Origin: Hirsutella rhossiliensis
Taxonomy: Eukaryota; Ascomycota; Sordariomycetes; Hypocreales; Ophiocordycipitaceae
NCBI RefSeq assembly: GCF_020360975.1
Contig: NW_025408686.1
Span: 806,001-870,000, forward strand
Reading direction: 5' to 3'
Length of the DNA stretch: 64,000 bases
Shown: positions 1-21,547 of the stretch, in pieces
How positions within the stretch are numbered: the first letter of the stretch is position 1
Layout: each line of letters opens with the position of its first letter
Notes under the pieces: generated by a model
Databases searched by the model: none
What the model was told of the DNA's origin: nothing
The model's input: the letters and a program-made list of their open reading frames with translations, nothing else
Program-made: the position numbers and the translations under genes

Positions 1-2788
1 CAAGGCTAAGTGGTTCACCAAGTTGGACGTGGTGGCCGCTTTCCATAAGATCCGCATGGCTCCGGGACATGAGGAAAGAATGCATTTCGCACGAGGTTTG
101 GGCTCTACAAGTGGCTCGTGTGCCCTTTCGGCCTGAGCGGCGCCCCGGCATCATTCCAACGATACATGAACAGTGTATTGCGCGAATGGCTGGACGACTT
201 TGTCACAGCGTACCTGGATGATGTACTGATCTACTCGAGCGGTTCGAAGGCGGATCATGAGGCTAAGGTGCGACGAGTTCTCCAAGCACTCGCCGACGCT
301 GGGCTGCACCTAGACCCAGCGAAGTGCGAGTTTTCGGTACAAGAGGTCAAATACCTTGGGTTCATCGTCAACGCAGGGAAAGGAATCGCCTGCGACCCCG
401 AAAAGCAGCGCGCCATCCGCGAATGGGAGGCCCCGACCACGGTGAAGGGTGTCAGAAGCTTTCTGGGCTTCGCCAACTATTACCGGATCTTCATCCCCGA
501 CTATGCCAAGATCACGCAGTCTCTGGATGCCCTGCTTAAGAAAGGAACTGCCTTTCATTGGGGACGAGCGGAGAACGAGGCGTTTCAGGAGCTGAAGCGA
601 CGATTTTGCGAGTCACCGGTGCTCAAGCAGTGGGACCCGAGCCTCCCGACCTTTTTGGAGACGGATTGCTCAGGCTACGCATTGGGAGGCGTCCTGTCGC
701 AGGAAGGCCCAGATGGACGTCGACACGCATGCGCCTTCTTCTCGAAGCGACTTTCGCCAGCGGAGTACAACTATCCCATTCACGACAAGGAGATGCTTGC
801 CATCATGAGATGTCTCGACAACTGGAACGCCGAACTTAGGAGCTGCGGCCCATTTACAATCCTTACCGATCACCGCAACCTGGAGTATTTCATGACACGC
901 CAGAAGCTCACGGAACGGCAGAGCCGTTGGGCAGCCGAATTGTCCCAGTTCGACTTCAAGCTCGAGTATCGACCGGGAAGCGAGGCTGTCGTGCCTGATG
1001 CGTTGTCCCGCCGTGAACAAGACAAGCCACAGGGCATTGACGACGAGCGGGAACAAGGAAGAATGATACAGTTGATACCGGATAGTGCCATTCCATCATC
1101 GACAAGAGCATGTATCAACGCGATGAGTTCTGACTGTTCAGAGGCATCCACCCTGCCGAAGATGAAGGTCTTCGAGGTAGCGGACCTGCAGCAACTCTGG
1201 GACGAAACGGTGGCGAAGGACTCGATATTCCGGGCAGCCTATAAGGCAGTCCGCGATCGCGAGCGTGCCTTCCCGCCCTCGCTGGGCCTGAAGATCCAGA
1301 TTTCAGAATGTGCGATCGACGCAGGCAAAAGGCTGACATTCAGAGACCGTATTTGGGTGCCGGGTGGATCCGGAGGAGGGTAACCAGGAGGAAGCTGAGA
1401 AAGACCAGTTGAGAACCCGCATTGTGCAGCAGTCGCATGACTCTGTTGCGACCGGTCATCCCGGCAGGGAAGGTACGCTGGCTATTGTGGCTCGGCGATT
1501 CTACTGGCCTGGGCAGTCCCAGCTGGTTCGCCGGTACGTAGCCAATTGCGACACCTGCGGCAGAGCACACATCTGGCGCCAGTCGAAAGGGATTTCTCAA
1601 GCCTCTGCCGATTCCAGATCGACCCCGAAGCCATTTGTCCATGGACTTCATCACAGATCTGCCGCCTACTGGACCGAGCAAGGCAAGGTACCTGTGGGTG
1701 ATTGTGGACAGACTGACAAAGGCTGTGACCCTCGAGGTGATGGACAACATGGAAGCTGAGCAGTGTGCAAACCGTTTTCTCCAGTGTCATTACCGATTTC
1801 ACGGAATGCCACGGTCCATCGTCAGCGACCGCGGGAGCAACTGGCTAAGTAGGTTCTGGAAGAGGTTCTGCCGTCTTGCAGGTGTCACGCAGAAATTGAG
1901 CACGGCCTATCATCCTCAGACGGACGGAGGGCCAGAGAGAATGAACCAGGAGATCGAGGCCTACCTGAGAGCCTACGTGTCGTACGTGCAGGACGACTGG
2001 GAGAACTGCTCCTGCCGCGCAGCTGGCACTCAACAATCGTGAATCCGCAGCGACCAAGATCAGCCCCTTTTTCGCTGAGCATGGTTACCACGTCGATCCC
2101 ATCAGCGTCGAGGAATCGGAAGAGCCACCGAGGCATAGAGAGGAAAGCAGAGCTGATAGCCTACTCAGTCGCCTGCAGGAGGTCAATGAGTACATGCAAG
2201 CAGTGATGGCCTCCTCACAGCAACAACAAGAAGAGGCTGCCAACGCAAAGCGACAGCCTGCGGAGCGATTTGAAGTTGGTGACAAGGTGTGGCTCTCGAT
2301 GGCAAACTACAGATCGCCACGACCGTGCAAGAAGCTCGACTGGCTGCATCACAAGTACACAGTCACGAAGGTAATTAGTTCGCACGTTGTTGAGCTCGAT
2401 GTTCGTGGCTCAATTTACCCGCGATTTCATGTTGACCTTTGCGGCGGGCGCATCAAGATCCGGCTCCTGGCCAAAGGTAGATGACGCACAGCCACCACCG
2501 GTACAAGATGAGTCCGGCACGGATCTGTGGGATGTCGACGAGATCCTCTGCGCGAGATGGAAGAAGCGCGGACGAGGGAATTCAGGCAAGCACTAGTGCG
2601 ATGGACGGGCTACGCAGAGCCGACTTGGGAGCCAGTTGAGTGGTTGCAAGGAACAATTGCGATGAAGGCATTCGAGGACAAGTACGGGCCAATCAAGACC
2701 AATGATGGCCCTAGGGAGAGGTACGAGACGCTGGCAGGAACGCAAGAACCCCGCAGACGCCGACCTGGTCGGAGGGGACAAGGGGGGT
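1..2788 (+). pseudogene. Gypsy copy A pol polyprotein: RT, RNase H, integrase, chromodomain (frameshifted, 5' partial)
   Basis: The first ~90 bases encode the RT motif around KLDVVAAFHKIR, then the frame shifts near 77-80. The PFGLSGAP and YLDD (about 211-222) RT motifs follow. RNase H (TDCSGYALGG, then TDHRNLEYF) covers about 655-1010. A zinc-binding integrase N-terminus and catalytic core lie at about 1380-2040 in several frames (MDFITDLPP, DRGSNWLSRFWKRF, AYHPQTDGGPERMNQ). A chromodomain lies at about 2520-2690 (residues around VDEILCARW and WTGYAEPTWEPVEWL). Breaks near 77, 1375, 1590 and 2005 separate the frames. Copy B keeps integrase open where this copy does not, and the break near 77 is shared by both copies. 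The protein would have copied and integrated the element, with the chromodomain possibly guiding it to marked chromatin. Confidence 0.9.
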
Positions 2789-2790
2789 AA
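2769..2790 (+). promoter_or_regulatory. Gypsy copy A polypurine tract
   Basis: A G/A-rich run (ggaggggacaaggggggtaa at 2771-2790) lies directly before the 3' LTR. This is where plus-strand DNA priming occurs in LTR retrotransposons. The same run is at 16714-16733 on the minus strand in copy B. Confidence 0.8.
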
Positions 2791-3023
2791 TGTCACGGGC
2801 TGTGCCCGGCTGGTGGACCCGGTTGTACCGGGTCCGGTGGGTCGTGCTCGGTGGCAACACCGGCCGGCCCGCGGACCCAGAAGCTGCGAGAACATTCCGA
2901 GAAGGGCAATATAAGCTCGCACTCGAGGCTACGCCTCGAGTTCAGCTTCTTTTCCTCCTTAGCTCTAGATAGACAACACCTAGGCACCTGCTTGTTGAAT
3001 AAACTCCGGGCCAGCCTTTCACA
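2791..3023 (+). repeat. Gypsy copy A 3' LTR (233 bp)
   Basis: It begins TGTCACGGGC and ends CCTTTCACA. It has a TATA-like box (2910-2915), a perfect 9-bp hairpin at 2921-2941 and an 8-bp hairpin at 2815-2835. The predicted transcript start is AGCTCTAGATA at 2961-2971, and AATAAA is at 2998-3003. The start assignment rests on the self-priming match seen next to the 5' LTR of copy B. At two informative sites (2907 and 2843-2854) this LTR agrees with the LTR at 21596-21829 rather than that at 16481-16713. At one site near 2874 it differs from both. Confidence 0.93.
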
Positions 3024-5870
3024 CAGGGGACTCCTCTAGCGTTCGGCCAACCTTACCTTGACCGCAGGAGCCGTCATGTAGTTATAGGATACAGACTTGT
3101 CAATACCGTGAGTCCCGAGAATAGCCACCTTGTCCCTCTCTTTTGATTCCGGTTCTTGAGTATTGGTCCTCACATTATAACATAGGAACAAGCACGCGAC
3201 TACAACAATGCTGGAACTTTCACCCACCAGGACGAGAACCCAGGAGGCTCACAGATTGGGCCAGGAGTTTATATGACTGCTGGCCCCGGGGAATACCGAG
3301 ATCTTGATGCAAACTGGTATTTGCAACCTTGAAGTACACCGTATCAGAATTAATATATCTAACTTCAATATTGCTAGGATTTGTGACATCAAAGCCGATG
3401 AAGAAGCATTCGCGCGACTACCCAAGGTCATTATACCCATTGAAATGATAAATGGGGGTTGGTTAGGTGACGACGAAGCCGAGATATATATCAAATCACT
3501 CAACTCCACCTGGGCGGTCAACGAGCCCGTGCGTATCTCATATCTCGATGAGGAGAGAGCAGCCGACAATACGAGAGTAGTACAGATCCTACTCCCTTTT
3601 CATCTTACGAACGACCAACCAGATGGGATCGACTTTCAAGTGGAGTGCTTCGTTAAGTCGGATGAAATTCTCCACCGGCCACGTGTTGACGTCTCCACCT
3701 GGACGAATGTGCGAGGTCGATGGGAGCAGCGAGATGATCACGGTCAGGGTATAACATCACTTCCTCCACCGCAGTCTAGTCACGAACCCATGGAGGTTGA
3801 AAATACGGCGGAACGGCCTCCTACACCACAGCTTAGCCATGAACCCATGGAGGTTGATGTCTTACATTGCTATTCCACCCAAGGCCAAAGTGCAAATGCC
3901 TATACACAACAGACTTGCCCCGAACCAATGGATGTTGACCCTGCTCCTAACGGAATGATCACGGAAGCGGATATGATGGAGGCTGCCGAGTATCTGCGCG
4001 AGCACAACGAACCATGCCGGTCCGATTCCGATTATCCCAATAGCCAATTGGCTATGGACGTGGAGATGCCATCACGACGTCCTTGGAGCGGCTTGACCAG
4101 CACAACCCCAGCGGACCGTTCGGACACAACCATGGCATTTTAGACGCCTCTATTCAGCAAGCTATAGAAAGGATGAGGCAAGGTGGGAATGGTGTATGCA
4201 ATCTGATTGACGGATGCGGTTCGGAGTTTGGCAAGTTTCAGCGACGCAAGAGGGCCCAAGGTAAGATACCCAATGTTGGTTGATAACTGACAAACGCATC
4301 GAATCGATGCCCCTGCTAATTCGAGACGTTTCAGACGGGCCCAAGAAGGAACTGGGATCTTTCTGTCGCAAACTCAAAGAGACAATCGCCAAGCCTGCTG
4401 TCCATCTTTGCGAAAACGATACCTTCAATCCGCCGTGTACTACTGTTAAGAGCTCGGCCGGGCAGTGCGGTAGGTCCCGCCTCAAGTCAGTCCTTATACT
4501 TTCGGCTAACCACTTGTCTTGAAGTCTCTGTGCCCACCTCGTTGAAAGGCAAGGTGTCTTCGGTACGGCCAAATGAAGCTGCCGGTACCTGTCGCTTCTA
4601 TAAGTAGGCTTTCTTATTTCTTCTTCTTCTTCTTCTTCTTCTTCTTCTTCTTCTCTTCTATTAACCTACGGCGTGGAAGCTAACGACCTCTTTTAGTAAG
4701 CCTGGCTGCAAGGACGGCGAGGGCGGTCACTTCGATGTCTCTTACCCAGGCGCTGATGTCTCCAAGGGCGAGTGGCCAAGGCCCGAAGACTTCAATGATA
4801 AGATCGCTTCCTTCCGCTGCGACGCGGCGAAAGAGTCGAACACGCCTGAACAATGGGAATGGTCGCCTAAGTCTCAGCCGCAGCTCTGCTCTCATTTCGA
4901 TCACTTGAACCTTGGTTTCCAGTTATCGGACAGTAGTGGCGCCGGAACCTGGGATACCATTAAGCTCGACTTCCCGAATGCGGCTTCAAAAAAACACGTC
5001 ATCGCAAACGGTCCAGCCGCTGGATTTCATGAGTGGCAGCCCATCAATATGCAGAATGTGTTTGGGTCGGATTTAGTCGAGGTCCGCCGTATGTCAAAGA
5101 TCCGCCTTGCCACCGAGATAAATCAGGCAGTCCTTGATTTCAAGGAGGCAGATGAGTGGAGCCTTATAGGTGCGTATTATTACTTCGCTTTGCCCTGCCG
5201 CGAAAGACACTAACTCCTTATATAGGCCTAAAACTGACAGCACGATGCGCTAAGTCTGGTATATGGGTTGACATGGACAAATTCGCCTCGATGAATAGGC
5301 TGATGCAGGCTAAGCCTACTGACAGTGGCAGGTACCGATATCATAGGGATTGGGAAGTCTGGGCCGACGATATCAAATCCGAAGACTGGGTTCCGAGGCC
5401 CCCATGCAGCCATTTCCAGCAGATGGACGTTCGTGTGGAGATGGCTGATGAGAGCTGGGCCGGAACCAACAACGATCTCTATATCTATGCCGGCAATGGC
5501 CGTTTCCAGATCGCTCATCAACCCTCTCGCCGCCAAAGCTACATCTCCAACGTCAACCTCGAGGTCGCCTATAGGTCGTCGGCTGTTCCTGTGGCCGATA
5601 TTAAGCGCATCTCGATCAAGAGTGAAGGAGGGTCTTGGAATAAGGCGTTGGCTTCGAGTAAATCCCCCTCCCCCCCTCGCCTCACCCCTCGTGTCTCGGG
5701 GAAAGCATGGCAGCTGATACGTCGTGCCAAATTCAGATATTAGCGTCCATGCACGCTGCGCCAGCTCGCTCACTGGTGTTCATGTCGATTATGAAGTGAA
5801 GGACTGGCTCGCTGACGGCCAGCAATGGAACCTCGATTTGACTCCTAGAAATTGGACCAGGAACAACTAA
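3024..5870 (+). pseudogene. Secreted ADP-ribosyltransferase-like protein, main body (5' end removed by Gypsy insertion)
   Basis: A multi-exon gene is open from the LTR junction at 3024. Introns with good borders are at 3108-3185, 4261-4334, 4470-4524, 4604-4696, 5170-5225 and 5658-5736, and the stop is at 5868-5870. The first exons carry a Tyr-Arg motif followed by a QIGPGVYMT stretch, which recalls fungal secreted ART/enterotoxin-A-like proteins. That assignment is from family memory and is not certain. The middle (about 3770-4060) has four copies of a P-M-[E/D]-V-[E/D] peptide. The C-terminal ~300 residues look like two copies of one beta-rich module, each ending with an ARCA...V.VD pattern. 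Breaks: the start codon and signal peptide are missing here (see 21830-21876), a one-base frameshift lies in a T run at 3318-3322, and one more frame change or missed intron lies near 4080. Confidence 0.6.
4617..4653 (+). repeat. (TTC)n microsatellite inside an intron
   Basis: About twelve TTC units form the pyrimidine-rich interior of the 93-nt intron at 4604-4696 of the ART-like gene. It is the longest intron of that gene, and the repeat accounts for the extra length. Confidence 0.9.
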
Positions 5871-6208
5871 CTGGAGGCTACTGAGATATCAATGCGTCCA
5901 GTGGATTGAAGTTGAAAAGGAGGCGTACAAACTAAGGGGGGCACAAAGAAAGGGGGTTACGTAGGCACTAATAGGGACTAGTTATATGCACAACAGGTTA
6001 CGCTAAGGTTATGTGCACAGCAAAAAGTGGAGTAGTGTGGCTTGGTGGCGCAGGAGCGCCGATAACGTACCTCACTGAGTCATGCAACGCACCACGTCAT
6101 GCAACACAGGAGACCGGCCCCTTTCAGGGTCCGCCAATGCCTTGAGGAACGGGACTGAATTTGGTTCCGCACTGGCAGGTCTGCTGAGACGATGAGGCTT
6201 GCTCCCGG
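5871..6208. other. Intergenic, nothing recognised
   Basis: Downstream of the ART-like gene there is no convincing reading frame on either strand. Short open frames here overlap each other and show no codon or motif signal. The stretch ends at a MITE half-copy. Confidence 0.6.
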
Positions 6209-6270
6209 TACCCGTGCCACGCCCCACTTATTTCGCGTTCGTTCCTCACCAGCTCCATAAGCTGGTGCTG
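6209..6270. repeat. Half copy of the fold-back MITE
   Basis: One arm beginning TA-CCCGTGCCACGCCCCACTT and running to the central AGCT is about 90% identical to the arm of the perfect fold-back at 13398-13495. The second arm starts (AGCTGGTG) and then diverges, so the element is truncated or decayed. Confidence 0.75.
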
Positions 6271-6401
6271 GGACATACATACAAGTGGGTGATGAGGAAG
6301 CTGGTGCTGGACGAAAGGCTTGCCGGCTCGATCGATTCGATTCCCGTTCTTCTTCATATTTCTTTACGCTGGGGTAGGTGTGGCTCTTGATTGCCATCAT
6401 G

Positions 6402-6725
6402 GCAGAGCCTGAAATGGCGCCTCCGGCCGACGTGGGGGCGGGGCTGGATCCAACTAGCCCGTCGCCATTGACGCGTCCGACGCGAGGGATGACGCCCAGC
6501 GCACGAGTGCAGGATACGTTACGAACGCTGGAAAATGCGACCGCGAGAGCTCCCAAGCGTGTCTCGACCCGAACGACGCGAGTCATATCGGTGGGCAACG
6601 AAAGCGAAAGAGGCGACGAGGTGAAGTCACGCAGCAATGCGGAGACCGCCAAATCGATGATGCAGAGGGTTCTAGAGATGCTGGCGAAGATGGGAAGTGA
6701 GATGCTACTTAGGATAAGCTTATAA
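6402..6725 (+). pseudogene. Possible LINE ORF1 N-terminus (fragment)
   Basis: An open frame of about 107 codons from the ATG at 6402 is rich in Pro, Thr and Arg. It then becomes helix-forming (SNAETAKSMMQRVLEMLAKM), like the start of Tad-type LINE ORF1 proteins, where a charged coiled coil follows a disordered N-terminus. It stops where very AT-rich DNA begins (about 6712-6840). A LINE 3' tail follows at 6928-7001, so this may be an internally deleted LINE. The similarity is by composition and pattern only. Confidence 0.35.
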
Positions 6726-6840
6726 AGCTATATAATCCGTTAAATCTCTTATAGAATTATTTACTTATAAAGTAGCTCTTTAATCTTAGTCCCTTAGGCT
6801 TTAATTTAAAGAAATACCTTTATAATATAAAGGAAATTGT
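6712..6840. other. AT-rich spacer
   Basis: Strongly AT-rich DNA with many TTATA/TATAA words, unlike the GC-rich DNA on both sides. No gene is seen. It could be a decayed insertion separating a LINE 5' piece from a LINE 3' tail. Confidence 0.5.
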
Positions 6841-6927
6841 CAGAACGGTGGTTCTGCGGCTCGGGCCTAATGAGGAAATAGGTGGGTATGTACGATGGAT
6901 CAAGGCTTAATGCAGCAGCTTGTGTGC

Positions 6928-7001
6928 TATACCTAGCCTAGCACGTCTTTTGCCCTTATAGGGATGTCCCAGACGGTAATCAATACTACTACTACTACTA
7001 C
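6928..7001 (+). repeat. LINE 3' tail ending in (ACT)n, copy 1
   Basis: It carries the block CTAGCACGTCTTTTGCCC, then TTATAGGGATGTCCCAGACGG, and ends in an ACT repeat. The same block ends the next LINE copy at 7695-7776. A tail followed directly by another 5'-truncated copy indicates a head-to-tail pair of LINE insertions. Confidence 0.75.
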
Positions 7002-7776
7002 CACCTTACGGCGGCAGGCCAAGGCTGCGGCCGGGCGCGACTTCCAGGACTGGTGGGCCGCGGGGGCCCCGAGCAGCTACAAGAGCCTAGAGCTCAAGGC
7101 CTCGCTCGGGTGCCCCCCGGAGCTGCACACCAAACGACAGCACCTCCATCACCTGCTCGCTGCGAGGAGCGGGCACGGGGACTTCGCCGACTACCACGAG
7201 AGGTTTAACCACGAAGAGGCCCGGATCGAATGCTCTTGCGGGAGGAGAAAATCACCGACACACCCTTCTACTGCCGGAAGGTAGGTACTCGACACCGCCT
7301 AAGGCTAGCCCCACGGCGGGCAAGGCTATCAACCAGGCACTAGGAAGGGATTTGACCGGTTCCTCGGGCTAGTTACGGAGGCAGAATTCTTTGATCGGAT
7401 CTGCCACCGCCACTAGCTCGAGGCAACCCTCCAACCTAATATGTACAACTCTCTCTTTCTATGTTTTCTGCCCGTAGGCTCCTGTGGGCCTACGGCCCAG
7501 CTGACTGCGTGGGCTTTCTCAGTCACCCGGCTCTGACCGAAGACTGACTAATATTACGGCTTCGCCGCCGTGCCCGGAACCCGCTGACGGGGAAGGGACC
7601 TGAGAATCGAGCGGCCACAGAGTCCAAGAATTGCTAGATAGGGAGTAGAAGTAAGGAACGCGCGACGGGTCTCCGACGAGCATCCCCATCTTGTACTATA
7701 CCTAGCCTAGCACGTCTTTTGCCCTTATAGGGATGTCCCAGACGGTAATCAATACTACTACTACTACTACTACCCA
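7002..7776 (+). mobile_element. 5'-truncated Tad-like LINE, 3' end
   Basis: Reading from about 7002, the frame gives the C-terminus of a LINE ORF2: a basic helix (RRQAKAAAGRDFQDWW), then a terminal zinc knuckle (CSCGRRKSPTHPFYCRK, with a frame change in the middle). A decayed terminal segment at about 7320-7415 still reads like KAINQALGRDFD in pieces. Then comes a 3' UTR (7440-7690) and the conserved tail block with (ACT)n at 7695-7776. It is a dead copy; the RT domain is absent. Confidence 0.75.
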
Positions 7777-7799
7777 CAAAAAGAGTGGGGGCGGGCACG

Positions 7800-7893
7800 A
7801 TTAGTCTAGCTCAGCACGTCCTGTGCCCCGTCTCGGGGACCTGAGCGGCCTAAAGGCCGCTGGACGAAAAATACACACACACACACACACCTG
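7800..7893 (+). repeat. LINE-type 3' tail ending in (CA)n
   Basis: A second tail type: CTAGCTCAGCACGTCCTGTG, a GC-rich stem, a perfect GCGGCC-TAAA-GGCCGC hairpin, CTGGACGAAAAATA, then about ten CA units. The same layout recurs at 24625-24717, where the simple repeat is (CTA)n. Confidence 0.65.
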
Positions 7894-8084
7894 AGATGTG
7901 CGGAATGCTGATTGGGTGTTGAGCTTGAGTGGACGGGTGGAGCCTAGGAGAGAAGAATGCCGTCACCCGACGAACCTTGCATTTAATAGCGCACCATCCG
8001 CTTCACGCCCGCCGCACAGAAACTATCAGACATCAACCCCGCAGTCACTCTTCTCGCGACCACAACCGGAATCAGCAACGCACC

Positions 8085-8888
8085 ATGGCGGCAAAAGTCC
8101 AAATCCCCGGCCTCAACAGCGGCCTTACAGATGCAGATATGGAATGGAGCCGTCAGCTGTACGTCACACGCCTTGTCCCATGCACCACGCAGACTGCCAC
8201 GCACACTGACCTCGTTCCGCAGGTACAACGGCCTTCCCTCCGATGAAGCCCAGCCCGAAGTTGAGCACCTTCTCCAACAGCTCGCCGAGATTTTTGTCCG
8301 AAACAACGCCCACAAGGTTTTCGGCGTCCACTTGGTCCATGGTCACCTCCAGATCCCGGAAAGAAAGTCCTGTTCGGAGACAGGACTGGCCCACGTTGCC
8401 GCTGGACAAAGCCTACCAAGGTGGACTCATTGAACCTCGACAGCTTGCGCGGGCACACTTTTATTCTCACAGACAAGGGCTTCCACCCGTACGAATACCA
8501 CTCCGGCAAACATCCCGAATTAGCCCAAATCGAGGATAACTTCGTTTCTGAGCTGGCCGACTTCCTCAGGACAAACCAACTAAGCAGAATAATTGCACTT
8601 GAGGTTCTAGACAGCCCGTTGCCGGAAACCATGATGGAGCTTGTCCTGGGGGATCATGGAACCATGATGATGGAACCGGAACGCCTGAGAGGCTGCAGAC
8701 CGTTCCGGCAAACTGGCTGGGCTTTCGTAGAAGAAAACGGCGAGCCACGCGTGTGTAAAGATGGGAAGCAGCATCATGTCACAGGTCCCAACGGCCACAT
8801 CATCATCGTTGAACCGCCGAAAAACAATGAGATTGAGACTTGTTCTGATGCTTTGCATTTCTTGAGGGAGCATGGCCTTCTCAACTAG
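8085..8888 (+). CDS. Conserved hypothetical protein, family X member 1 (one frameshift)
   Basis: The ATG at 8085 opens exon 1. A 64-nt intron at 8159-8222 fits GT...AG, and the frame then continues through a block VRNNAHKVFGVHLVHGHLQIP. Near 8355-8365 the frame shifts by a base. It then runs PYEYHSGKHPELAQIEDNFV, LADFLRTNQLSRIIALEVLD and a C-terminal HHVTGPNGHIIIVEPP to the stop at 8886-8888. No catalytic motif, signal peptide or membrane span is seen. The protein is about 240 residues long. A diverged relative lies at 12694-13397 with the same order of blocks. The frameshift is at an A/G-rich spot and may be a sequencing error. The function is unknown to me. Confidence 0.7.
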
Positions 8889-9497
8889 GTGCACAGGACA
8901 TTAACGAAATTTTTTCCCCCACATCCAATGTAGTCCACACCGTGATGAATGGTTGATTGGGACTTCTGGGGATGTTCAGAAAGTAAGATGACCCGTTCAG
9001 CAGAGCTGAATGAGCCCCACTTTCGGTGACATCAGCAAGATGACCCAGCACTACCGGTGTTACAGAACTCTGCTCCGGAAGTTCACCAGGCCGATTTGTT
9101 AGTTTATGGGCTATTGGTTCGGGAACGGTAAATGTGACACAAGACCCCATCCTGCCATCTTGGTCGAATGCCGTCTGGAGGAGTATCAATGTGAATTTTT
9201 GAGCATTGTGGTTTCGTAAAGCCCATATTGCCTGCTCTTTGCCAAGCATGAACGAGCTAGCTTGGAAGCTAGGGGAGGCTGCATATCGTCAACCCTGCAT
9301 AATTTGATTGTAAAATGGGAGCATAACTCACTTGAATCAAAGGCGGCAATTGCACCTGCGTGCGGCATGAGATGCTCTTGTCCAATATGTCTCTGTATCG
9401 GCGGGCCAAGCGCGCCGGGTCGCGCAACTCTGGCTTGCTCGCGTTTCGCGTGCACTGCAGCGTCGTCATCCAGGCCATGTTGGGCAGGGTCGGACAT
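8881..9497 (-). CDS. Hypothetical protein, overlaps tail-to-tail with family X member 1
   Basis: The minus-strand ATG at 9497 gives about 55 residues. A 53-nt intron at 9279-9331 (donor GTGAGT, acceptor ...ATGCAG) joins in frame to a second exon of about 133 residues ending at 8881-8883. The donor is clean and the frame is kept across it, which argues for a real gene. There is no signal peptide or membrane span. The second exon is hydrophobic-polar mixed with no motif I recognise. Its stop lies inside the last codons of the plus-strand gene, so the two coding regions overlap by 8 bases at their 3' ends. Confidence 0.55.
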
Positions 9498-9656
9498 AGT
9501 CGCACCTGATGTGCCGTTGAAGACTAGATCGGGCGAGGAGGACGCTCGTGCAGCTAACTTGAGCCGTTAGCACCCTGATGTGGCAACGTATCTAGAAGCA
9601 CTCACTCTCTTGAAATGACCCCTGCACCCCGGCTGCGGGAAAGGGACAGTACCAGA

Positions 9657-11214
9657 TCACATGCAGCATGTTGTGATGAATGAGTAGCGGGTGTTTGGCA
9701 GGAGTGGGCAAAGGACTCGGTCAAGGAAAGACGGCGCCGGGCGGTGGGTGACGGTAGCGGCGTCTGAAGGGCTTGCGGCAGAATGGGAAAGATGAGAGGC
9801 GGCCGTGCTGGTATCTCGGTAGGATCTCTCACCCTTCTTGGACTCTTCTCTGGCCCACTCTAACGATTGCGAAAACTGCGGTTGGTTGGCCAGAGGCGAG
9901 CCCTGGGCCTGGAGCTCGGCCAATAAGTCTGGGTCAGGCCAGTTAGCAGCGGCTTCCCAGTGACAACGGAGCCTTTGACTCACCGTAAATTTTCCCGGCA
10001 TCAGCGGCAGCACTAACGGTGGGGAGACGAGTCCTCTGCCTCTTGGTCGCTCGATCCGAGGGTGTCGGAGCTGTTCTTTTGCCGTGGGAACCGCTCGAGG
10101 GTAGGGCTTGTTCAGACTCTGCAGTCGACGACAAAGTTGGAGTCGTCCCAGCGTCAGGTGACGACGGCGGCGATGGCGGGAACGGGCAAGAATTTCCACC
10201 AGCAGCCCTGATGTCGGCAGGCAATGGGGCTGGCAACGGGCAAGCCGCTTCGGTCTGCAAGAGTCCACTGTAGCCGATGGGCGGTGGACGATCGGGGGCG
10301 ATGCTGCTCGCTGCTGATGGTGCGGGGTTTGCTCGATTGCCATCTTGGCCGTCGGTCTCGAGACTTGTTGGCTGATCGTCAAATTCCTCCCTCACCACAA
10401 CGCCGAAACGGTCCAACCCAAGACTGGCAGGCAACCTATTGGCGGCACGGTAAAAATATTCAGACTCATGCTTGGCTGCCTTATAAGCGGCTTCCCGGTC
10501 TTTCTCGGTGGCCAGACCCTTGGCTTTGGCGCGCTGGATTTTGCCGCGTTGGTCCTGCCTTCTCGCTTTCTCAATGTCGGGCTGCGTGATCGGGTTCATG
10601 GAAGCTGGGATGGGATGCACATTGAGAGATTTGGCCCAATGTCGATCCAACAGAACTTGGTTCAACCTCCTCACGAACGTTGGCCAGTCTATCTCCCTCG
10701 CTGCAGCGTGTAGCTGTTGGCAGTAGGTGTGCGATATGGTCCCCCAGCCATAGTGGCGTGCGACCTGGGCACCCCAATGATCAGCCACCGTTTGGAGAGC
10801 CTTGACACGGGCCGCCCGTAGCTTCGCTCCCTTCGCGGCTAGCTGCGTGAATTGTCGCCACGATCCATCAAGCTCGCCAGAAGTGCAATTTTGCTCAGAA
10901 GCTTCCATGACATCTCGGCAGATCGCGGACAAGATCTCCAAATTCTCGTGGTCGCCCAGAAGGCTGTCTCGTGTTTGGCGGCATACCATGGCCTTCTCTG
11001 CATCGGATTTGCAGGAAGCGAGCTCGCGCTGGAGTTTGTTGACCTGCTCCAGTTGATGGCCGACGAGCACGACAGCGGGATAGCTCAGGGCGAACCTGGA
11101 GACGATGGAGCTCTCGCCATGGTGTGCAAGGAATACGGTGAAGGCTGGGCTAAGGGAGAAGGAGACGGTCCGTATGGCCCTCCCAAAGGCAGGACTTGGA
11201 CATGTTAATAACAA
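9657..11214 (-). CDS. Hypothetical protein with helical N-terminus and disordered Pro/Ser-rich C-terminus
   Basis: A long minus-strand frame covers 11214-9984, followed by a 55-nt intron at 9929-9983 (GTGAGT, CTAAC branch, CAG) and a second exon (DLLAELQAQGSPLANQPQ...). The N-terminal ~200 residues are rich in Leu, Gln, Lys and Ala, with heptad-like spacing and a conserved-looking block around WGAQVARHYGWGTISHTYCQQL. Residues about 270-400 are Pro/Ser/Thr-rich with a basic cluster (KRTAPTPSDRATKRQR) that could be a nuclear signal. The true start is unclear: the open frame begins without an ATG, so an upstream exon may exist. The 3' limit, at or before 9657, is also uncertain. I do not recognise the family. 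Confidence 0.5.
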
Positions 11215-11439
11215 TGCCGAGACTCGAGGCTTGTTGCGATTTGCTAATCCCTGTCTACCTTGCTATTGGTAGGTACTGCCCCATATTTGGTCATTCGAAA
11301 TGGGACGAAGTGGAGCATACTGTAATCCCAGCCACCAGCTGGGGTGTCTGCGCGCCGCCTGCATATACGAACGACCTTCCTCCAATTACAGTTCTCCTAT
11401 AACCTTTCACGCCTAGTCTTGCGACGCGTAGGTTTACTA
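11215..11439. other. Intergenic, nothing recognised
   Basis: No reading frame or motif is supported here. It is likely the upstream region of the minus-strand gene ending at 11214. Confidence 0.5.
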
Positions 11440-11629
11440 TCCCTTTGAATGTGCGAAGGTAGCCCCCAGGTCACAGACAGGGATCTCAGCCAATAAGACC
11501 ACTAGCTGATAAAGAGTACACGACATAACCAGCGAATTGGGCTATGATTTAAGTCCCAGCAATCTGGCCGAGTAGCCACGTACTGTGGGTTTTGTGACCT
11601 GGGGGCTGCCTTCGCACACTCAAAGAGAT
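11440..11629. mobile_element. MITE, about 190 bp, with 40-bp terminal inverted repeats
   Basis: The left end (CCCTTTGAATGTGCGAAGG, then TAGCCCCCAGGTCACA) is the reverse complement, with about five mismatches, of the right end at 11590-11629. The interior has no reading frame. A single end of the same family lies at 41089-41130. The superfamily is not clear. A TA next to the left end and to the 41130 end hints at TA insertion, but the right end here does not show it. Confidence 0.75.
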
Positions 11630-12693
11630 GAGGGCCGGTGCGCCAGCCAGTAGCGAGCATGGTACATGGCAGGCGAGAACGCGCACCCCCTTTGGCAATT
11701 CAAGGTGAGGGGCAGGCAGTGAAGCTGTCCCAGTTCTCGTGTTGTGTGCTAACTGACGGTGCAAGAGAAGCCTTGCTCAGGTCCTGCGAAACGAGAGTTC
11801 GCAAGGACCCTCCGGGCCATGGAGACCACGGAACAGCTGAGAGGAGTGCTAACCTGCAACGTGGTGTACGCGCCATGGAACACCTAGGTGCGACGACAGC
11901 CAAGCAGCATCCGAGGCAAGAAAACGACGCTAATGAGTCGAGGGAAGCATAGGGACAATCGCCGGGATGCTCCAACGGCCCTATTAGCGTATGTGTGACC
12001 CCGGTAAACACACCTGAGTAACATCTTGTAGCTGCGGGGCCATTGCAATCCCAGAGTGGTGCAGGGGTCACCTTGGGTCGTCCCTGATTCACACCTTCCA
12101 CTTCATTTGCACTACATATCTGCAATAAGATGCCCCGGCACCACGGGCCGCCAACGCACGAGAACGGGTGGCGTCGTGTTGTCACGGCCTTGCTCCACCC
12201 GGTAGCGGTACAAGTCAGCCAATACGACTGAAAAACGAATACCTGCGATCGCCCACCCACATTTCAAATCTGCACAAGGGTCACAGTGCAACCGCCCAGC
12301 TGAAGTGGAACGAGATAACCAGCACGAGGCATGATCGGCTGCTGGCCACTGTACCTAGGCATTTGTTGTGGGCGTCCTCGTCCGCCGTTATACTATCGCA
12401 TGAGGACCTTCTCCGCAAAGTTGCATTTCAGCATGTGCGGCTCATGCAACTACCACTGCGCGCCACAACTAGACCAACTGAAGGCTTTCCAGTTAGCCCA
12501 CCCATAGATAAGCTAATACCTGGTTCCCAAACATGCCTTTTACATAAGAGCCGGTGTTCCACCCCAAGGTAGCCGCTTAGGACCAAACCTCTCAAGGCCC
12601 TGATCTATAAAAGTGCCGAACGGTCCACCTCGCGTCTGCAGTCTGACAGTTCGAACCCACCAAGCTACAAGTCGCACCCACGGAATCATTGCA
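11630..12693. other. Unassigned 1.06 kb
   Basis: Several medium open frames occur on both strands (the longest on minus, about 11700-12260) but overlap each other and show no domain, intron pattern or repeat. The promoter of the gene at 12694 should lie at the right end. Confidence 0.45.
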
Positions 12694-13397
12694 ATGGCGA
12701 GGTATGTCATTCTTTCGGCGACTATTTAACTTACTAACAACGAAAGTAGCACGGCATACGATCCAGAAGCATACCGCTCGCTCCCAAGTTTGCACCGGGC
12801 AAACCAGTTACTCAAGAAAATGGTTGTGAAAGTATCATCACCGGCCCCATTCGGGAGCTCTTTCTTCGCCATAAAGTTCAAAAGCATCTTGGACTGGCCT
12901 TGCTACACAAGCATTTTGACATCCAGCCACAGGAGCGCCTCGTGGATCTTCGCAGCGTGTCCACGCCTTGGCAAACCGGGAACGACACGGATGCTGTCAT
13001 TTCAAAGTATAACGGCCACGTCGTCCCACGGGCAACGAGATCCTGGAAGGGGGGCTGGGGTCCCTACGAGTTTGAGTTTACGGAGAGTGGATCATCTGAC
13101 GTCGCGGAAGGCAGTGCGCTTTTCCTACAGGAGCTGTCCACATTCCTGCACCAGTCCAATCTAGATCAAATCCTGGGAGTCAGGATGCTGGATTCGCGAG
13201 ATACTAACGCGTCGGTTGAGGTTACCGAGGTCGCTCAAACATCATGCTCGCCAAGGGGTCTGTTGACGAAGAGAGTCTCATCTCTGCAATGTGGGTCTTT
13301 GGCATGGATGAGGATGACCGATGCAATTGTAGGGAATACTGTTATAAAGACCGGGGAGGAGCACATACTGGGAGCAACCATGGGTGTGGCTGACTGA
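12694..13397 (+). pseudogene. Conserved hypothetical protein, family X member 2 (3' end lost at a MITE)
   Basis: ATG 12694 gives three residues, then a 48-nt intron at 12702-12749 with a TTACTAAC branch site. Exon 2 starts in frame (TAYDPEAYRSLPSLHRANQLL) and shifts frame at an A run near 12815-12820. It continues with IRELFLRHKVQKHLGLALLH, then PYEFEFTESGSSDVAEGSAL and LSTFLHQSNLDQILGVRMLD. These blocks align in order with the gene at 8085-8888. Near 13225 the better-matching frame changes again, and the C-terminus runs into the fold-back element at 13398. The copy is diverged (roughly 30% by eye), so this is an old duplication. The function is unknown. Confidence 0.6.
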
Positions 13398-13495
13398 TAC
13401 CCGTGCCACGCCCCACTTAATCTCGCGTTCGTTCCTCACCAGCTATGGAGCTGGTGAGGAACGAACGCGAGATTAAGTGGGGCGTGTCACGGGTA
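13398..13495. mobile_element. Fold-back MITE, 47-bp arms with 4-nt loop
   Basis: A near-perfect inverted repeat (one mismatch) has arms 13398-13444 and 13449-13495 around the loop ATGG. Both ends read TA-CCCGTG, consistent with TA target duplication of Tc1/mariner type. The arm recurs as single ends at 6209 and 41061-41081. Almost the whole element is terminal repeat, so it would form a hairpin as single-stranded DNA or RNA. Confidence 0.85.
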
Positions 13496-13713
13496 CAGGG
13501 CAACCGGGGTAGTGGGGACTATGGGCATGTACTTTCCTTAGTCACTCGGCGCTGGTTTTCGCCCAACGGGTTTTTCCAGCGCTATTTATTACCTTGCAAA
13601 TGCAGAGTGACTCATCTTTTCGGTCTTTATCAGCCGTCTTTATCTGCCGTACCCAATCCTGTATTCCCGCACACACACACATCCACGAACTTATCGCCAT
13701 TCCTTTCACCATC

Positions 13714-14421
13714 ATGTATCCCATCCTCAATATGCAGTTGCACATCGCGCCTCTCGATATTGAAGGTGCGGACGACGTCGTGCGCAAGGTAGATCTGCCT
13801 GCTATGAAAGATGGCCCTTTATACCGCTTGATGTTTCCCTTGAAGGAGGTCACAGAAGAGCAACAAACCGAAATCATCCACTGGTACGTACGAGGGATCA
13901 TCGATGCTTTAAATCGTACCACCGACACACTCATTCGAATTTGCGACGCTGAAGGCACACCACTTGGATTCTGCGGGTGGACCGTAGAGGATAGACCTCT
14001 CGCGAGGAGGGAGAACGGACCAGCAAGGCACCTGTTGATACCTGAGATGCTCGATATATCAGCATGGTCCAGCGTCTCGAGCAACTTGAGAAAGGAGAGA
14101 ACGCGCTCTCAATGGTCGCAAGCACGTTTGCCGTAAGCGTGGAATCTTGGCAAAATCAATCTGGAACTGGCTGACCTATGCCGCTCAGGCTTAACCTTCA
14201 TGTCGGTCCATCCTCGTCGTCAGCGTCAGGGCTTAGGTTCTCGACTACTACAGCATGCCTGCAATCGGTTTGATCAATTGCACTGCCCTGCTTTCGTCAT
14301 GGCATCACCCTCCGGTGTTCCACTGTACCGAAAATTTGGGTTCCTCATCGTCGGGAAGGTAGAGACTTCGAAAGGGATTTTCTCTAGCATGATCAGGGAA
14401 CCCCAGAGCGGATGCCCTTAG
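13714..14421 (+). CDS. GNAT-family N-acetyltransferase
   Basis: The likely start is the ATG at 13714 (MYPILNMQLHIAPLDIEGAD). The N-terminus is of the usual fungal GNAT form, with a small Leu/Pro-rich start and a PLYRLMFPLKEVTEEQ block. A 56-nt intron lies at 14133-14188 (branch CTGAC). Exon 2 holds the acetyl-CoA-binding motif A, FMSVHPRRQRQGLGSRLL, and motif B, VPLYRKFGF. A one-base frame change is needed near 14100-14103 to link the two halves. The protein is about 220 residues long, normal for this family, and is expected to be cytosolic or nuclear. The substrate cannot be inferred. Confidence 0.8.
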
Positions 14422-15616
14422 CAAGACTTCCTAATCCGACTGCTAATTGCCATTCAAGCTGCGGCAGGGTTGAAACCCTTTGCCCGCAACCCATTTCAAC
14501 TGCGGGTGATCGATCGCTAACCTTATCCACCGGTTGTCTTTGAGGATAGATATTTTTGGGGGCCGTCCAGGTTGGGTGTGAGAGTGGGCATTCCGGTTTT
14601 CAGGAGCATCAGCGCCGAAATGGAAGTAAGTATGCGCGAAGCATGGCAGGAAGAGCCCAGAAGATTTGACAAATTGGCGAGTTGCGGTGCGAGCGCGGTT
14701 TTATGGATGGTCAAGAACCGTGTTCTATTGATGAGTTGGACAGCGATAAGGGTAAAGCACTTTTAGCAAGGGCGATGGAGATGATTCTTGAGGAGACGAA
14801 AACGCCAAAGGAATTGCCCAGTATCTAATTATCTTTTCCCGTCTCAGAGATCTATTCTCTGTTCCTTCCCTTCCCGCCTGACAATCCTGCCTTTTCTTGA
14901 CACTCACGACCAATGGCCCCGGTAAGGCCGACCAGGAGACAGCCAAGTTCTTGGCTCTGTGCGCCAGTACGAAACCCATCTTGCGGAATTGTCACAGCTG
15001 AGAGTCACGATTCCTGCAGCCGCGCTGTTGCCCCACAAATCCCAATGTGGAATGTAGCAACGACACACACCTTTTGCCGTGTCTTTGGCCATCCTTGTTT
15101 GGTCCATCTCCACCAGAGAGCTCATGGTGTCGTCACGGCCCCTGGGCAAGTTGCCCTCTGTGCCGTTCCATGGCGTTCCGACCCCTAGTCAAGGATTGTT
15201 TAGACGCATGCAAGTTAGAGTGCATGAACCAGGTTGTATGCACTGCTGGTGATGCCGAGATACTGGATGGCCTCGTAACTGTGAGCCAACCACATTGACC
15301 AGCTGAAGTCGTGCAATTCCACCCACCCTACTCTGACCAGGGCCGTTTTAATGTGGAGGAAGCTCATATGCCTCATATATGTAAATCATCATATCAACAA
15401 TAGCCCAACCCCAAGGCAATGATAGTGTAACCTTCCTATGCACAGAACACCCAATCACCATCTTACTCTAGGTACATCGTCCCGTTTGTAAAGCGACTGG
15501 ACAATGTGCTGTGGCTCTCTTTACCTGAGCGTTACTTGCTATGTACTAACATTCGCTGTTATGACTTAACGTCTATATAAAGCACGTCTCTCGTTCTGGG
15601 CGAATCCGATGCTCAT
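14422..15616. other. Intergenic 1.2 kb, nothing recognised
   Basis: Only short overlapping open frames occur, without motifs or plausible introns. The right end is probably the promoter of the membrane-protein gene: TATATAAAG lies at about 15574-15582, some 40 bases before its start codon. Confidence 0.5.
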
Positions 15617-16480
15617 ATGCCTTCTCATCACTCTAAGTCCCAAATCCACTCTCTCCACCATTCCAGGTTGCCGGATGCCGACATGCATGACGAGATTACC
15701 ATCAAGGAGGTTACCGAGGCTGGTGTCGTGTTTTCCGTGACGACGGTCTTTCTGGCGCCCTACCTGTACTGGATGATCAGAGTCAAGCCACGAGAAGCTT
15801 CGCGTAGGCGAACTTGGGCGTTAATTTCTACGGCCTCTGTCTTCTTGGGAACCGGACTAATATTTGCCTCTTTGTTCGGCAGTGCGAGAAATGCACTCTT
15901 ACCAAGCGTCCTTGCCTACCCCTTCTTCACAGCCTGGAAAGGAGTCACAATATTATGCGTCGACATCATCGAGGTACTCCTATTTAAGCCCGTCTAGTTA
16001 TCTCCCCTATATACTCATTGTTTACAGCTTATTCAAGTTGTCGATCCCTTGATTTACGCCTATTTTTCTCGCGCCGTCGAGCCTGACCCATCCATTAAGG
16101 CGAGAATCATCATTTTTGGACTAGCATTAGTCTTTCACCTTCCCTTTATTGGGGCGACCGTCTGGCATATCAGGCTATCTGGCATCGAATACTGGTGGGC
16201 TGCTCCATTGGTATCTCACTTGACTACCGTTATTATGGTTATGGCGATATGGAGGAAGACACAGCGTTTCCGTCGTTTTGACCGGTGCTCGAACCAGCCG
16301 ACGTCAAACCAAGGGATGCCGTGGCTTGGAGCAGTAAGCGGACTGGTGTTCCTAGCATCATCTGGGCTCCTAGTATGTTCTATGACTGGTTGGGTGAGAC
16401 ACCAGTTTGGAGGTCAATGTGGACTTTGTCTGGCGATTTTAGTTATGCCGGCAGTACCTCTTGACAATATGATAAGAGAG
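15617..16480 (+). pseudogene. Multi-span membrane protein, 3' end removed by Gypsy insertion
   Basis: ATG 15617 opens a soluble lead of about 30 residues. One 54-nt intron lies at 15974-16027 (...TTTACAG). About seven hydrophobic segments can be seen: around GVVFSVTTVFLAPYLYWMI, WALISTASVFLGTGLIFASL, AYPFFTAWKGVTILCVDI, IIIFGLALVFHLPFIGATV, WWAAPLVSHLTTVIMVMAIW, WLGAVSGLVFLASSGLLV and CGLCLAILVMPAVPLD. The frame is open up to the LTR at 16481. The topology resembles fungal seven-span proteins of unknown function; I cannot name the family. If the inversion model is right, the missing C-terminal part lies to the left of this window, on the minus strand, beside the 5' LTR of copy A. Confidence 0.7.
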
Positions 16481-16713
16481 TGTGAAAGGCTGGCCCGGAG
16501 TTTATTCAACAAGCAGGTGCCTAGGTGTTGTCTATCTAGAGCTAAGGAGGAAAAGAAGCTGAACTCGAGGCGTAGCCTCGAGTGCGAGCTTATATTACCC
16601 TTCTCGGAATGTTCTCGCAGCTTCTGGGTCCGCGGAGCGGCCGGTGTTGCCACCGGGCACGACCCACCGGACCCGGTACAACCGGGTCCACCAGCCGGGC
16701 ACAGCCCGTGACA
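16481..16713 (-). repeat. Gypsy copy B 3' LTR (233 bp)
   Basis: Read on the minus strand it begins TGTCACGGGC and ends CCTTTCACA. It differs from the LTR at 21596-21829 at several sites, including A at 16597 and GGGCACG at about 16655, where the LTRs at 2791 and 21596 share a different base. By flank it belonged to another insertion, with target sequence ctctc/gagag. Confidence 0.93.
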
Positions 16714-19490
16714 TTACCCCCCTTGTCCCCTCCGACCAGGTCGGCGTCTGCGGGGTTCTTGCGTTCCTGCCAGCGTCTCGTACCTCTCCCTAGGGCCATC
16801 ATTGGTCTTGATTGGCCCGTACTTGTCCTCGAATGCCTTCATCGCAATTGTTCCTTGCAACCACTCAACTGGCTCCCAAGTCGGCTCTGCGTAGCCCGTC
16901 CATCGCACTAGTGCTTGCCTGAATTCCCCTCGTCCGCGCTTCTTCCATCTCGCGCAGAGGATCTCGTCGACATCCCACAGATCCGTGCCGGACTCATCTT
17001 GTACCGGTGGTGGCTGTGCGTCATCTACCTTTGGCCAGGAGCCGGATCTTGATGCGCCCGCCGCAAAGGTCAACATGAAATCGCGGGTAAATTGAGCCAC
17101 GAACATCGAGCTCAACAACGTGCGAACTAATTACCTTCGTGACTGTGTACTTGTGATGCAGCCAGTCGAGCTTCTTGCACGGTCGTGGCGATCTGTAGTT
17201 TGCCATCGAGAGCCACACCTTGTCACCAACTTCAAATCGCTCCGCAGGCTGTCGCTTTGCGTTGGCAGCCTCTTCTTGTTGTTGCTGTGAGGAGGCCATC
17301 ACTGCTTGCATGTACTCATTGACCTCCTGCAGGCGACTGAGTAGGCTATCAGCTCTGCTTTCCTCTCTATGCCTCGGTGGCTCTTCCGATTCCTCGACGC
17401 TGATGGGATCGACGTGGTAACCATGCTCAGCGAAAAAGGGCTGATCTTGGTCGCTGCGGATTCACGATTGTTGAGTGCCAGCTGCGCGGCAGGGAGCAGT
17501 TCTCCCCAGTCGTCCTGCACGTACGACACGTAGGCTCTCAGGTAGGCCTCGATCTCCTGGTTCATTCTCTCTGGCCCTCCGTCCGTCTGAGGATGATAGG
17601 CCGTGCTCAATTTCTGCGTGACACCTGCAAGACGGCAGAACCTCTTCCAGAACCTACTTAGCCAGTTGCTCCCGCGGTCGCTGACGATGGACCGTGGCAT
17701 TCCGTGAAATCGGTAATGACACTGGAGAAAACGGTTTGCACACTGCTCAGCTTCCATGTTGTCCATCACCTCGAGGGTCACAGCCTTTGTCAGTCTGTCC
17801 ACAATCACCCACAGGTACCTTGCCTTGCTCGGTCCAGTAGGCGGCAGATCTGTGATGAAGTCCATGGACAAATGGCTTCGGGGTCGATCTGGAATCGGCA
17901 GAGGCTTGAAAAATCCCCTTTCCGACTGGCGCCAGATGTGTGCTCTGCCGCAGGTGTCGCAATTGGCTACGTACCGGCGAACCAGCTGGGACTGCCCAGG
18001 CCAGTAGAATCGCCGAGCCACAATAGCCAGCGTACCTTCCCTGCCGGGATGACCGGTCGCAACAGAGTCATGCGACTGCTGCACAATGCGGGTTCTCAAC
18101 TGGTCTTTCTCAGCTTCCTCCTGGTTACCCTCCTCTCCGGATCCACCCGGCACCCAAATACGGTCTCTGAATGTCAGCCTTTGCCTGCGTCGATCGCACA
18201 TTCTGAAATCTGGATCTTCAGGCCCAGCGAGGGCGGGAAGGCACGCTCGCGATCGCGGACTGCCTTATAGGCTGCCCGGAATATCGAGTCCTTCGCCACC
18301 GTTTCGTCCCAGAGTTGCTGCAGGTCCGCTACCTCGAAGACCTTCATCTTCGGCAGGGTGGATGCCTCTGAACAGTCAGAACTCATCGCGTTGATACATG
18401 CTCTTGTCGATGATGGAATGGCACTATCCGGTATCAACTGTATCATTCTTCCTTGTTCCCGCTCGTCGTCAATGCCCTGTGGCTTGTCTTGTTCACGGCG
18501 GACAACGCATCAGGCACGACAGCCTCGCTTCCCGGTCGATACTCGAGCTTGAAGTCGAACTGGGACAATTCGGCTGCCCAACGGCTCTGCCGTTCCGTGA
18601 GCTTCTGGCGTGTCATGAAATACTCCAGGTTGCGGTGATCGGTAAGGATTGTAAATGGGCCGCAGCTCCTAAGTTCGGCGTTCCAGTTGTCGAGACATCT
18701 CATGATGGCAAGCATCTCCTTGTCGTGAATGGGATAGTTGTACTCCGCTGGCGAAAGTCGCTTCGAGAAGAAGGCGCATGCGTGTCGACGTCCATCTGGG
18801 CCTTCCTGCGACAGGACGCCTCCCAATGCGTAGCCTGAGCAATCCGTCTCCAAAAAGGTCGGGAGGCTCGGGTCCCACTGCTTGAGCACCGGTGACTCGC
18901 AAAATCGTCGCTTCAGCTCCTGAAACGCCTCGTTCTCCGCTCGTCCCCAATGAAAGGCAGTTCCTTTCTTAAGCAGGGCATCCAGAGACTGCGTGATCTT
19001 GGCATAGTCGGGGATGAAGATCCGGTAATAGTTGGCGAAGCCCAGAAAGCTTCTGACACCCTTCACCGTGGTCGGGGCCTCCCATTCGCGGATGGCGCGC
19101 TGCTTTTCGGGGTCGCAGGCGATTCCTTTCCCTGCGTTGACGATGAACCCAAGGTATTTGACCTCTTGTACCGAAAACTCGCACTTCGCTGGGTCTAGGT
19201 GCAGCCCAGCGTCGGCGAGTGCTTGGAGAACTCGTCGCACCTTAGCCTCATGATCCGCCTTCGAACCGCTCGAGTAGATCAGTACATCATCCAGGTACGC
19301 TGTGACAAAGTCGTCCAGCCATTCGCGCAATACACTGTTCATGTATCGTTGGAATGATGCCGGGGCGCCGCTCAGGCCGAAAGGGCACACGAGCCACTCG
19401 TAGAGCCCAAACCTCGTGCGAAATGCAGTCTTTCCTCATGTCCCGGAGCCATGCGGATCTTATGGAAAGCGGCCACCACGTCCAACTTGG
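16714..19490 (-). pseudogene. Gypsy copy B pol: RT, RNase H, integrase, chromodomain (frameshifted)
   Basis: RT starts upstream at about 19790. The YLDD box is at about 19276-19299, after a frame change near 19425 that copy A shares. RNase H covers about 18860-18480. A 300-codon frame, 18201-17299, holds the integrase: the HHCC-type N-terminus (VRRYVANCDTCGRAH) and the catalytic core with MDFITDLPP, DRGSNW and TAYHPQTDGGPERMNQEIEAYL. The region at 17311-17021 joins to the chromodomain at 17118-16714. At least four single or double base indels split the frames, so the copy as written could not make a single polyprotein. Confidence 0.92.
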
Positions 19491-20843: not shown

Positions 20844-21547
20844 CCCTGGTAGTCGTCGGGTAGGACGGCTGTGACCAAACTCTCTTGGAGGCGTGCATTT
20901 ATTGCGTTCTCTAGAAATACGATCTTTGCACTGTCCGGCCAGTCTGCTCCCCCGGCTTCAGCTAATGCCTGTTCGAATCGGGGAAGGAAGGACGCGAGAG
21001 GTTGGTCTTCGCGCTGCCGCATAGTTCTCAGCGTGGCAGCAGCGCAGGATTGGATGTTGCTGTCCTGGTAGGTTCGGTCGAGGTATCGCATGAACTCTTG
21101 GGGTCGTAGCTACCCCAGGGCCTCCGCGGCGTAAAGGTAGCGACCACTTGCTGTGGTCGCTCGTCCAAACATGAGTTGATGAGGTACCAAAGTTCGCGAT
21201 TTCCACTGTAGTAGTGTGCATCAAGGTCCAGCTTGTCTCGCATCTGCCTGGCCCAGGAGGAGTAGCTCTTCCGTGAGCCGTCATACTTGGGTGGGTTGGG
21301 CAACGGTTTCCGCATTCCAGTACCGCAGGTTTTGGGAGGGCGTGCCCAAGCCAGGCGTGCTCTCGCCCAATCCTCGTGCCACTGGCGGCGATTGCAAGTC
21401 GGCGCTCTGCGGCTGCGCTCGCCCGAGTTGCTCCATCAGCAAGGAAAGTTGGTCCTGTAGAGGGCTGAGAGTCGCATTGACCGCTTCTTGAATGCGTTGG
21501 TCAATCCATTGCTGCTGGAGACTTGGGCTCTCACTCTGCTGGTCCAT
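20798..21547 (-). pseudogene. Gypsy copy B gag N-terminal part (frameshifted)
   Basis: The ATG at 21547 starts MDQQSESPSLQQQWIDQRIQ, 48 bases inside the 5' LTR and just past the primer site. The coding continues through three frames (21547-21281, 21315-21028, 21091-20798), including the capsid-like block MRQREDQPLASFLPRFEQAL. It would form the particle shell around element RNA. The breaks are single-base indels. Confidence 0.85.

Follow-up and report, generated by a model that had tools for sequence, protein, structure and literature searches.

A 13.5-kb block of the Hirsutella rhossiliensis genome has most likely been inverted through crossing over between two copies of a Ty3/Gypsy-type long terminal repeat (LTR) retrotransposon that lie in opposite orientation and are here called copies A and B. 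The window, i.e., the whole stretch of DNA that was analyzed, comprises 64,000 nucleotides (positions 806001 to 870000 of contig NW_025408686.1, hereafter C20, in an assembly of 81.8 Mb and 40 contigs); positions given without a contig name are those of the window. The orientations of the two copies, all four of their flanks, and unflipped, element-free joints on contigs C22 and C5 were observed directly. An earlier note on this DNA had read the block as flipped by a crossover between inverted copies, and the flanks, the joints, a homologous protein, and a family-wide control all support that reading.

Exchanged target duplications and unflipped joints

The features on which the argument turns are as follows.

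C20:803601-803835, + strand: 5' LTR of copy A, left of the window
1..3023, + strand: 3' part of copy A, recognized by its inverted match to copy B; the rest of copy A lies left of the window
2791..3023, + strand: 3' LTR of copy A, from BLAST and the flank letters, starting TGTCAC and ending TTCACA
3024..3028, + strand: CAGGG, half of the second duplication, directly after copy A; its partner is CCCTG at 21830-21834
3024..16480, no strand assigned: block between the copies, read as inverted from the exchanged duplications and the unflipped joints on C22 and C5
3028..5976, + strand: stretch duplicated at 98% on C5:3688216-3691198, where it abuts the sequence found right of copy B
7925..16480, - strand: stretch duplicated at about 100% on C22:714948-723514, where it abuts the left flank of copy A
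15998..16480, + strand: read as an exon of a membrane-protein gene that copy A interrupts; the final 36 codons of this gene are found to the left of copy A, at C20:803.5 kb
16476..16480, + strand: GAGAG, half of the first duplication, directly before copy B; its partner is CTCTC at C20:803596-803600
16481..21829, - strand: copy B, a Ty3/Gypsy-type element with both LTRs, reverse transcriptase, RNase H, and integrase
16481..16713, - strand: 3' LTR of copy B
21596..21829, - strand: 5' LTR of copy B
21830..21834, + strand: CCCTG, half of the second duplication, directly after copy B

The element has reverse transcriptase, RNase H, and integrase in that order, LTR ends of the TG..CA type, and a short target duplication (here 5 bp), as Ty3/Gypsy LTR retrotransposons do. 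In copy B (5349 bases), zinc-knuckle and chromodomain matches fell just under the curated cut-offs (C-terminal chromodomain PF00385: E = 1.1e-4, 22.4 bits versus a cut-off of 25.1). Copy A, with its letters taken from C20, is 5423 bases long in full. The two copies are homologous, lie in opposite orientation, one at each end of the block, and show 26 differences, one of them an indel of 75 bp; the longest span free of differences is 898 bases.

The flanks now read CTCTC-A-CAGGG ... GAGAG-B-CCCTG. The coordinates and letters given earlier for CAGGG after copy A and for GAGAG before and CCCTG after copy B proved correct, as did the remark that the copies' own flanks do not match and that a match exists across copies. 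Both swapped pairs are now present, with CTCTC found directly 5' of the copy A 5' LTR (C20:803596-803600), some 2.4 kb outside the left edge of the window, where the earlier note had predicted it as the test of its reading. Flipping 3024-16480 gives CTCTC-A-CTCTC and CCCTG-B-CCCTG, with both 5-bp duplications perfect. This interval, proposed as the flipped unit, stands as the flipped unique DNA; its ends are not the exact breakpoints, as the crossover would lie inside the elements. The chance of about 1 in 1000 that was originally attached to the match has to be replaced: for the two 5-bp matches here it is about 1e-6 from base composition and 6e-6 once the recurrence of 5-mers seen among insertion sites is taken into account.

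Both unflipped joints exist elsewhere in the same genome. The joint 1 query consisted of the left flank of copy A and the 16480 end of the block, with the elements removed and one duplication kept; the joint 2 query consisted of the 3024 end of the block and the sequence right of copy B. Joint 1 was found unflipped and element free at C22:714798-715102 (100% over query positions 1-305), and it was spanned by all 40 places scored, the best 40 of 56 candidates. On C22, the copy A left flank matches 712355-714952 at 99% and meets the duplicated stretch 714948-723514 in an overlap of exactly 5 bases. Joint 2 was found, likewise unflipped and element free, at C5:3688062-3688366 (98% over query positions 1-305); the genome search returned three places, the remaining two being the query halves themselves. 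The joints on C22 and C5 have the form of uninverted sequence, in which each target occurs once and the element is absent, and they are duplicated segments within the same genome, not the same locus of another strain. High-copy repeats obscured the genome searches with the 7.6-kb left flank and the 12-kb right flank, and the left flank was then queried alone.

Joint 1 also restores the membrane-protein frame, which spans 197 amino acids (aa), with 36 residues running on in frame past the joint, whereas the present-order joins on C20 lack this frame and have longest frames of 83 and 60 aa. Because joint 1 restores a host frame that the present-order joins do not have, we read the unflipped order as the older one and the insertions and the flip as later. 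A homologous protein, P0002 (75% identity, with 51% of the query covered), aligns through joint 1, marked here by a slash (PLDSMIRE/RQRRRVDRDM versus PLDNMIRE/HQRKRVDREM). It is one of three protein matches; the other two, shorter matches stop or diverge ahead of the joint, and two of the three are named as coming from Hirsutella minnesotensis (Ophiocordycipitaceae). No Pfam match above the cut-off was found for the membrane protein, and the open-frame test at joint 2 was uninformative (longest frame across the joint, 77 aa). The family of the cut gene has at least 40 related places in the genome, one of which, on C22, is 100% identical over 305 bases.

Family-wide control and a four-copy cycle on C7

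A genome search with the family's junction patterns found 60 places with the 5' pattern and 69 with the 3' pattern. The control set comprised the 57 copies (one a tandem) with both outer flanks read, whose flank letters were entered by hand into the matching script. Left out of it were C12:1792500 and C11:580501, for which no 3' end was found; C18:228468, whose 3' LTR is truncated; and 14 diverged places where the 3' junction alone was present. The tandem was counted once, C8:735893 being its inner part. A perfect 5-bp duplication flanked 45 of the 57 copies. Among the 12 exceptions, six 5' flanks equaled the 3' flank of another copy, and these closed into two swap cycles, one formed by copies A and B on C20 and the other by four copies on C7. 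Reverse-complement or same-end flank matches among the 12 unmatched copies were not found. The six cross-matches compare with 0.13 expected from base composition. The same 5-mers do recur at insertion sites (6 equal pairs in 2556, with ATAAG at three sites), and with this observed recurrence 0.31 cross-matches are expected, giving a Poisson probability of about 1e-6 for six. Close inverted pairs of copies at C1:4338762/4352597 and C4:6076363/6082680 keep their own duplications. At least nine solo LTRs are present among the matches listed (100 of 157 LTR ends); eight of the nine have a perfect duplication and one matches at 4 of 5 positions.

The C7 cycle consists of the following copies.

E1, C7:1070815-1076224, - strand: 5' and 3' flanks GTTAG and ATAAG
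E2, C7:1131146-1136556, + strand: 5' and 3' flanks GTTAT and GTTAG
E3, C7:1811187-1816594, + strand: 5' and 3' flanks ATAAG and CGTGC
E4, C7:1912013-1917429, - strand: 5' and 3' flanks CGTGC and GTTAT

By the same reading as for C20, no fewer than three further inversions would be required for this cycle. When equal duplications are paired, a single older linear order results, S0, -S2, +S1, -S3, S4, in which segments S1, S2, and S3 measure 54.9, 674.6, and 95.4 kb. A search over inverted-copy crossovers showed that three inversions are enough to produce the present C7 order and the end pairs seen there, along six equal histories. As a check, linearity is weak alone, given that 3 of the 9 pairings without self-pairs yield a single linear chromosome; tests of the joints carry more weight. 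The GTTAG joint rebuilds a repeat that is spanned, at 80-88%, by all 38 listed places besides the two halves (40 of 61 candidates scored). The two halves brought together at the GTTAT joint are now some 780 kb from each other; joined, they give a kinase-like reading, with a frame shift a few bases beyond the joint. This reading is spanned by six of six other places at 31-45% identity, one of them with two stops and one weak (E = 8e-4). No Pfam match above the cut-off was found for the restored C7 pieces, and when the joined kinase-like pieces were compared with proteins 0.55 to 1.75 times the query length, there were 14 candidates, none at E 0.001.

Several other members of the family deserve mention in their own right. 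At C8:730784-741284, the tandem has the structure LTR-interior-LTR-interior-LTR with unequal outer flanks (CGAGC and GTGTC), which fits recombination between two directly oriented copies. Four single copies (C9:588451, C11:327966, C12:794564, and C14:1600798) have unmatched flanks and no partner and are possibly products of deletion between copies; in C11:327966, the 5' and 3' LTR ends are of different types. The solo LTRs at C7:3348583 and C8:952700 share flanking letters, and the segment carrying one of them was probably duplicated.

Chimeric LTRs, assembly quality, and rival explanations

The LTRs themselves carry a trace of the exchange at alignment column 120. This column has the same base within all 18 unswapped copies with both LTRs aligned (including C3:964453, whose duplication matches at 4 of 5 positions) and different bases within all four swapped copies, A, B, E1, and E2, a split (4/4 versus 0/18) with a probability of 1 in 7315. 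Swap partners agree at it in 4 of the 4 testable pairs, of 6 pairs in all. Both C20 copies are therefore chimeric at one site each: column 120 is unequal within A and within B and equal across the swap. Of three LTR sites invoked in the earlier note, the one at 2907, 21710, and 16597 corresponds to this column, is reliable, and favors the swap; those at 2843-2854 and about 2874 fall in columns 1-110, where the 3' LTRs carry what look like unpolished read errors. Alignment gaps occur in 33 of 38 3' LTRs in columns 1-110 and in 0 of 38 in columns 111-236, and for 5' LTRs the corresponding counts are 1 and 20 of 34. This mirror pattern fits short-read polishing that reached only about 110 bases in from the unique flanks. 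LTR divergence as a tie-breaker was dropped, except for column 120, because the interior-facing halves carry indels. Given the same pattern, frame breaks inside family elements are to be read with care.

A number of points weigh against an inversion. Some concern the flanks: ATAAG is also duplicated at two other, unswapped copies, and 6 of the 12 unmatched copies have no partner, one of them, C3:964453, matching at 4 of 5 positions. Others concern the joints, for which the genome searches covered the unflipped order. On C7, two of the four joints (GTTAG and GTTAT) were examined, and the join at E2 in its present order also contains open frames (133 and 113 aa) comparable to those restored, for which reason frame length was dropped as evidence there. 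The LTRs are not free of conflict either. Column 192 disagrees within 1 of the 18 unswapped copies (C4:6076363), so single LTR sites can mislead, and several LTR indels group 5' with 5' and 3' with 3' LTRs, not by swap partner, which we explain as polishing noise. Indels in the interior-facing LTR half look like unpolished read errors, i.e., errors inside the elements, and small indels account for many of the 26 differences between A and B. Finally, the crossover point, sought inside the elements by means of family variants, was not placed, as A and B share the only 3' allele that followed LTR type.

The most serious rival is an assembly error, in which the true molecule is unflipped and the assembler switched between the inverted copies. 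An assembler that took the wrong path through the two inverted repeats of 5.3 kb would produce the same letters, so that the end result is identical, and the analysis drew on a single assembly. Moreover, the element interiors carry apparent unpolished errors, and an earlier Verticillium assembly had a considerable number of erroneous inversions, according to passages of PMC4971763. Nonetheless, we consider such an error unlikely. There is no N in the window, and the 26 differences between A and B, with the 75-bp indel among them, could let long reads distinguish the copies, although some of these differences may be errors. Matching duplications at 45 of 57 copies, including the close inverted pairs on C1 and C4, also speak against it, and the C7 cycle would imply three or more errors of this kind on one contig.

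Two further explanations are very improbable. Gene conversion, mutation, or independent insertions, with no inversion and with the 5-bp matches arising by chance, could draw on the six other unmatched copies, since unmatched flanks evidently arise in other ways too; against this, two 5-mers matched in the right orientation, both unflipped joints exist elsewhere without an element, and conversion of element sequence leaves the flanking DNA in place. Aberrant (alternative) transposition of a hybrid element has just as little to recommend it as the maker of the inversion. The element present here is an LTR element with an integrase, and such elements are copied, not cut out. Alternative transposition is known for cut-and-paste DNA transposons, as parts of PMC2775673 and PMC8225341 describe, and the relevant part of the former treats exchanged duplications, which are present here at both ends, as the mark of ectopic recombination.

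Returning to inversion by crossover, we infer that recombination rather than assembly made the switch, in the following order. Copy A would have inserted at CTCTC, cutting the membrane-protein gene, and copy B at CCCTG, about 13.5 kb away and in opposite orientation. Homologous recombination between the copies, somewhere inside the approximately 5.3-kb elements, would then have flipped the intervening DNA, producing a pair of chimeric elements in which the two duplication halves come from different insertions.

Relation to known inversions and neighboring repeats

Opposite orientation, exchanged duplications, and chimeric copies are described as marks of inversion by ectopic recombination in Drosophila, in the parts of PMC2775673 and PMC3355041 consulted here. 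Inversion 2z3 of Drosophila buzzatii (Galileo; PMC2775673, in part) likewise has inverted copies at both ends, exchanged duplications, chimeric copies, and a single target in the uninverted sequence; it differs in involving a DNA transposon and a comparison of two chromosome arrangements, whereas here the element is a fungal LTR retrotransposon and the uninverted joints lie in duplicated segments of the same genome. For inversion 2s of Drosophila mojavensis via BuT5, the passages of PMC3355041 in question also take reverse-complement target duplications as evidence of ectopic recombination, but there the element is a DNA transposon remnant, the sequences are 9 bp long, and the host is an insect. 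In Verticillium dahliae, fungal chromosome rearrangements also run over similar transposable elements, although the portion of PMC4971763 used here reports a strain comparison, with 13 translocations between chromosomes and 6 inversions. In the crapaud LTR elements of Podospora, 7 of 150 full copies have 5' and 3' ends that disagree, which is interpreted as gene conversion or ectopic recombination, but no partner copy or inversion is traced in the text examined (PMC10787394). Within those portions of the open-licence literature that were searched, no report of exchanged duplications of LTR elements in fungi was found. The mechanism is known, and what is added, as far as this search reached, is a clear fungal LTR-retrotransposon case, with before-and-after joints in one genome and a four-copy cycle.

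The 57 copies form 1596 pairs, of which 57 are inverted on the same contig, 45 are direct on the same contig, and 1494 are on different contigs. Each detected exchange lies within a single contig, whereas same-contig inversions would be expected to make up 7% of events if half of the between-contig pairs are counted as viable. This bias could stem from selection against translocations, from proximity, or from assembly habits, and it is a prediction that can be tested in other assemblies. We lean toward the view that one Gypsy family drives inversion here and that the older order can be read from one genome, given the C20 inversion, the C7 cycle decoding to three more, and the confinement of each exchange to a single contig. 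As the probable product of a retrotransposon crossover, the C20 block is a well-documented case in which both joints can be seen in their earlier and later states, with the family serving as an internal control. Exchanged target duplications can also decode overlapping inversions and earlier order without a second strain.

Other repeats occur near the block. A 2.1-kb element at 22018-24138 has 48-nt terminal inverted repeats (92% complementary) and several genome copies at 99-100% identity, and a repeat of about 2.78 kb at 27880-30658 carries a hAT dimerization domain and has more than 20 copies near 99% identity. Within the block, a 760-bp repeat at 7015-7773 (more than 20 copies at 96-99%) overlaps 83-nt direct repeats at 6923-7005 and 7692-7774, and a near-perfect palindrome at 13398-13495 has 47-nt arms (98%) and a 4-nt loop. 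Left of copy A, C20:796001-800434 is a 4.4-kb repeat with more than 20 copies at 97-99%.

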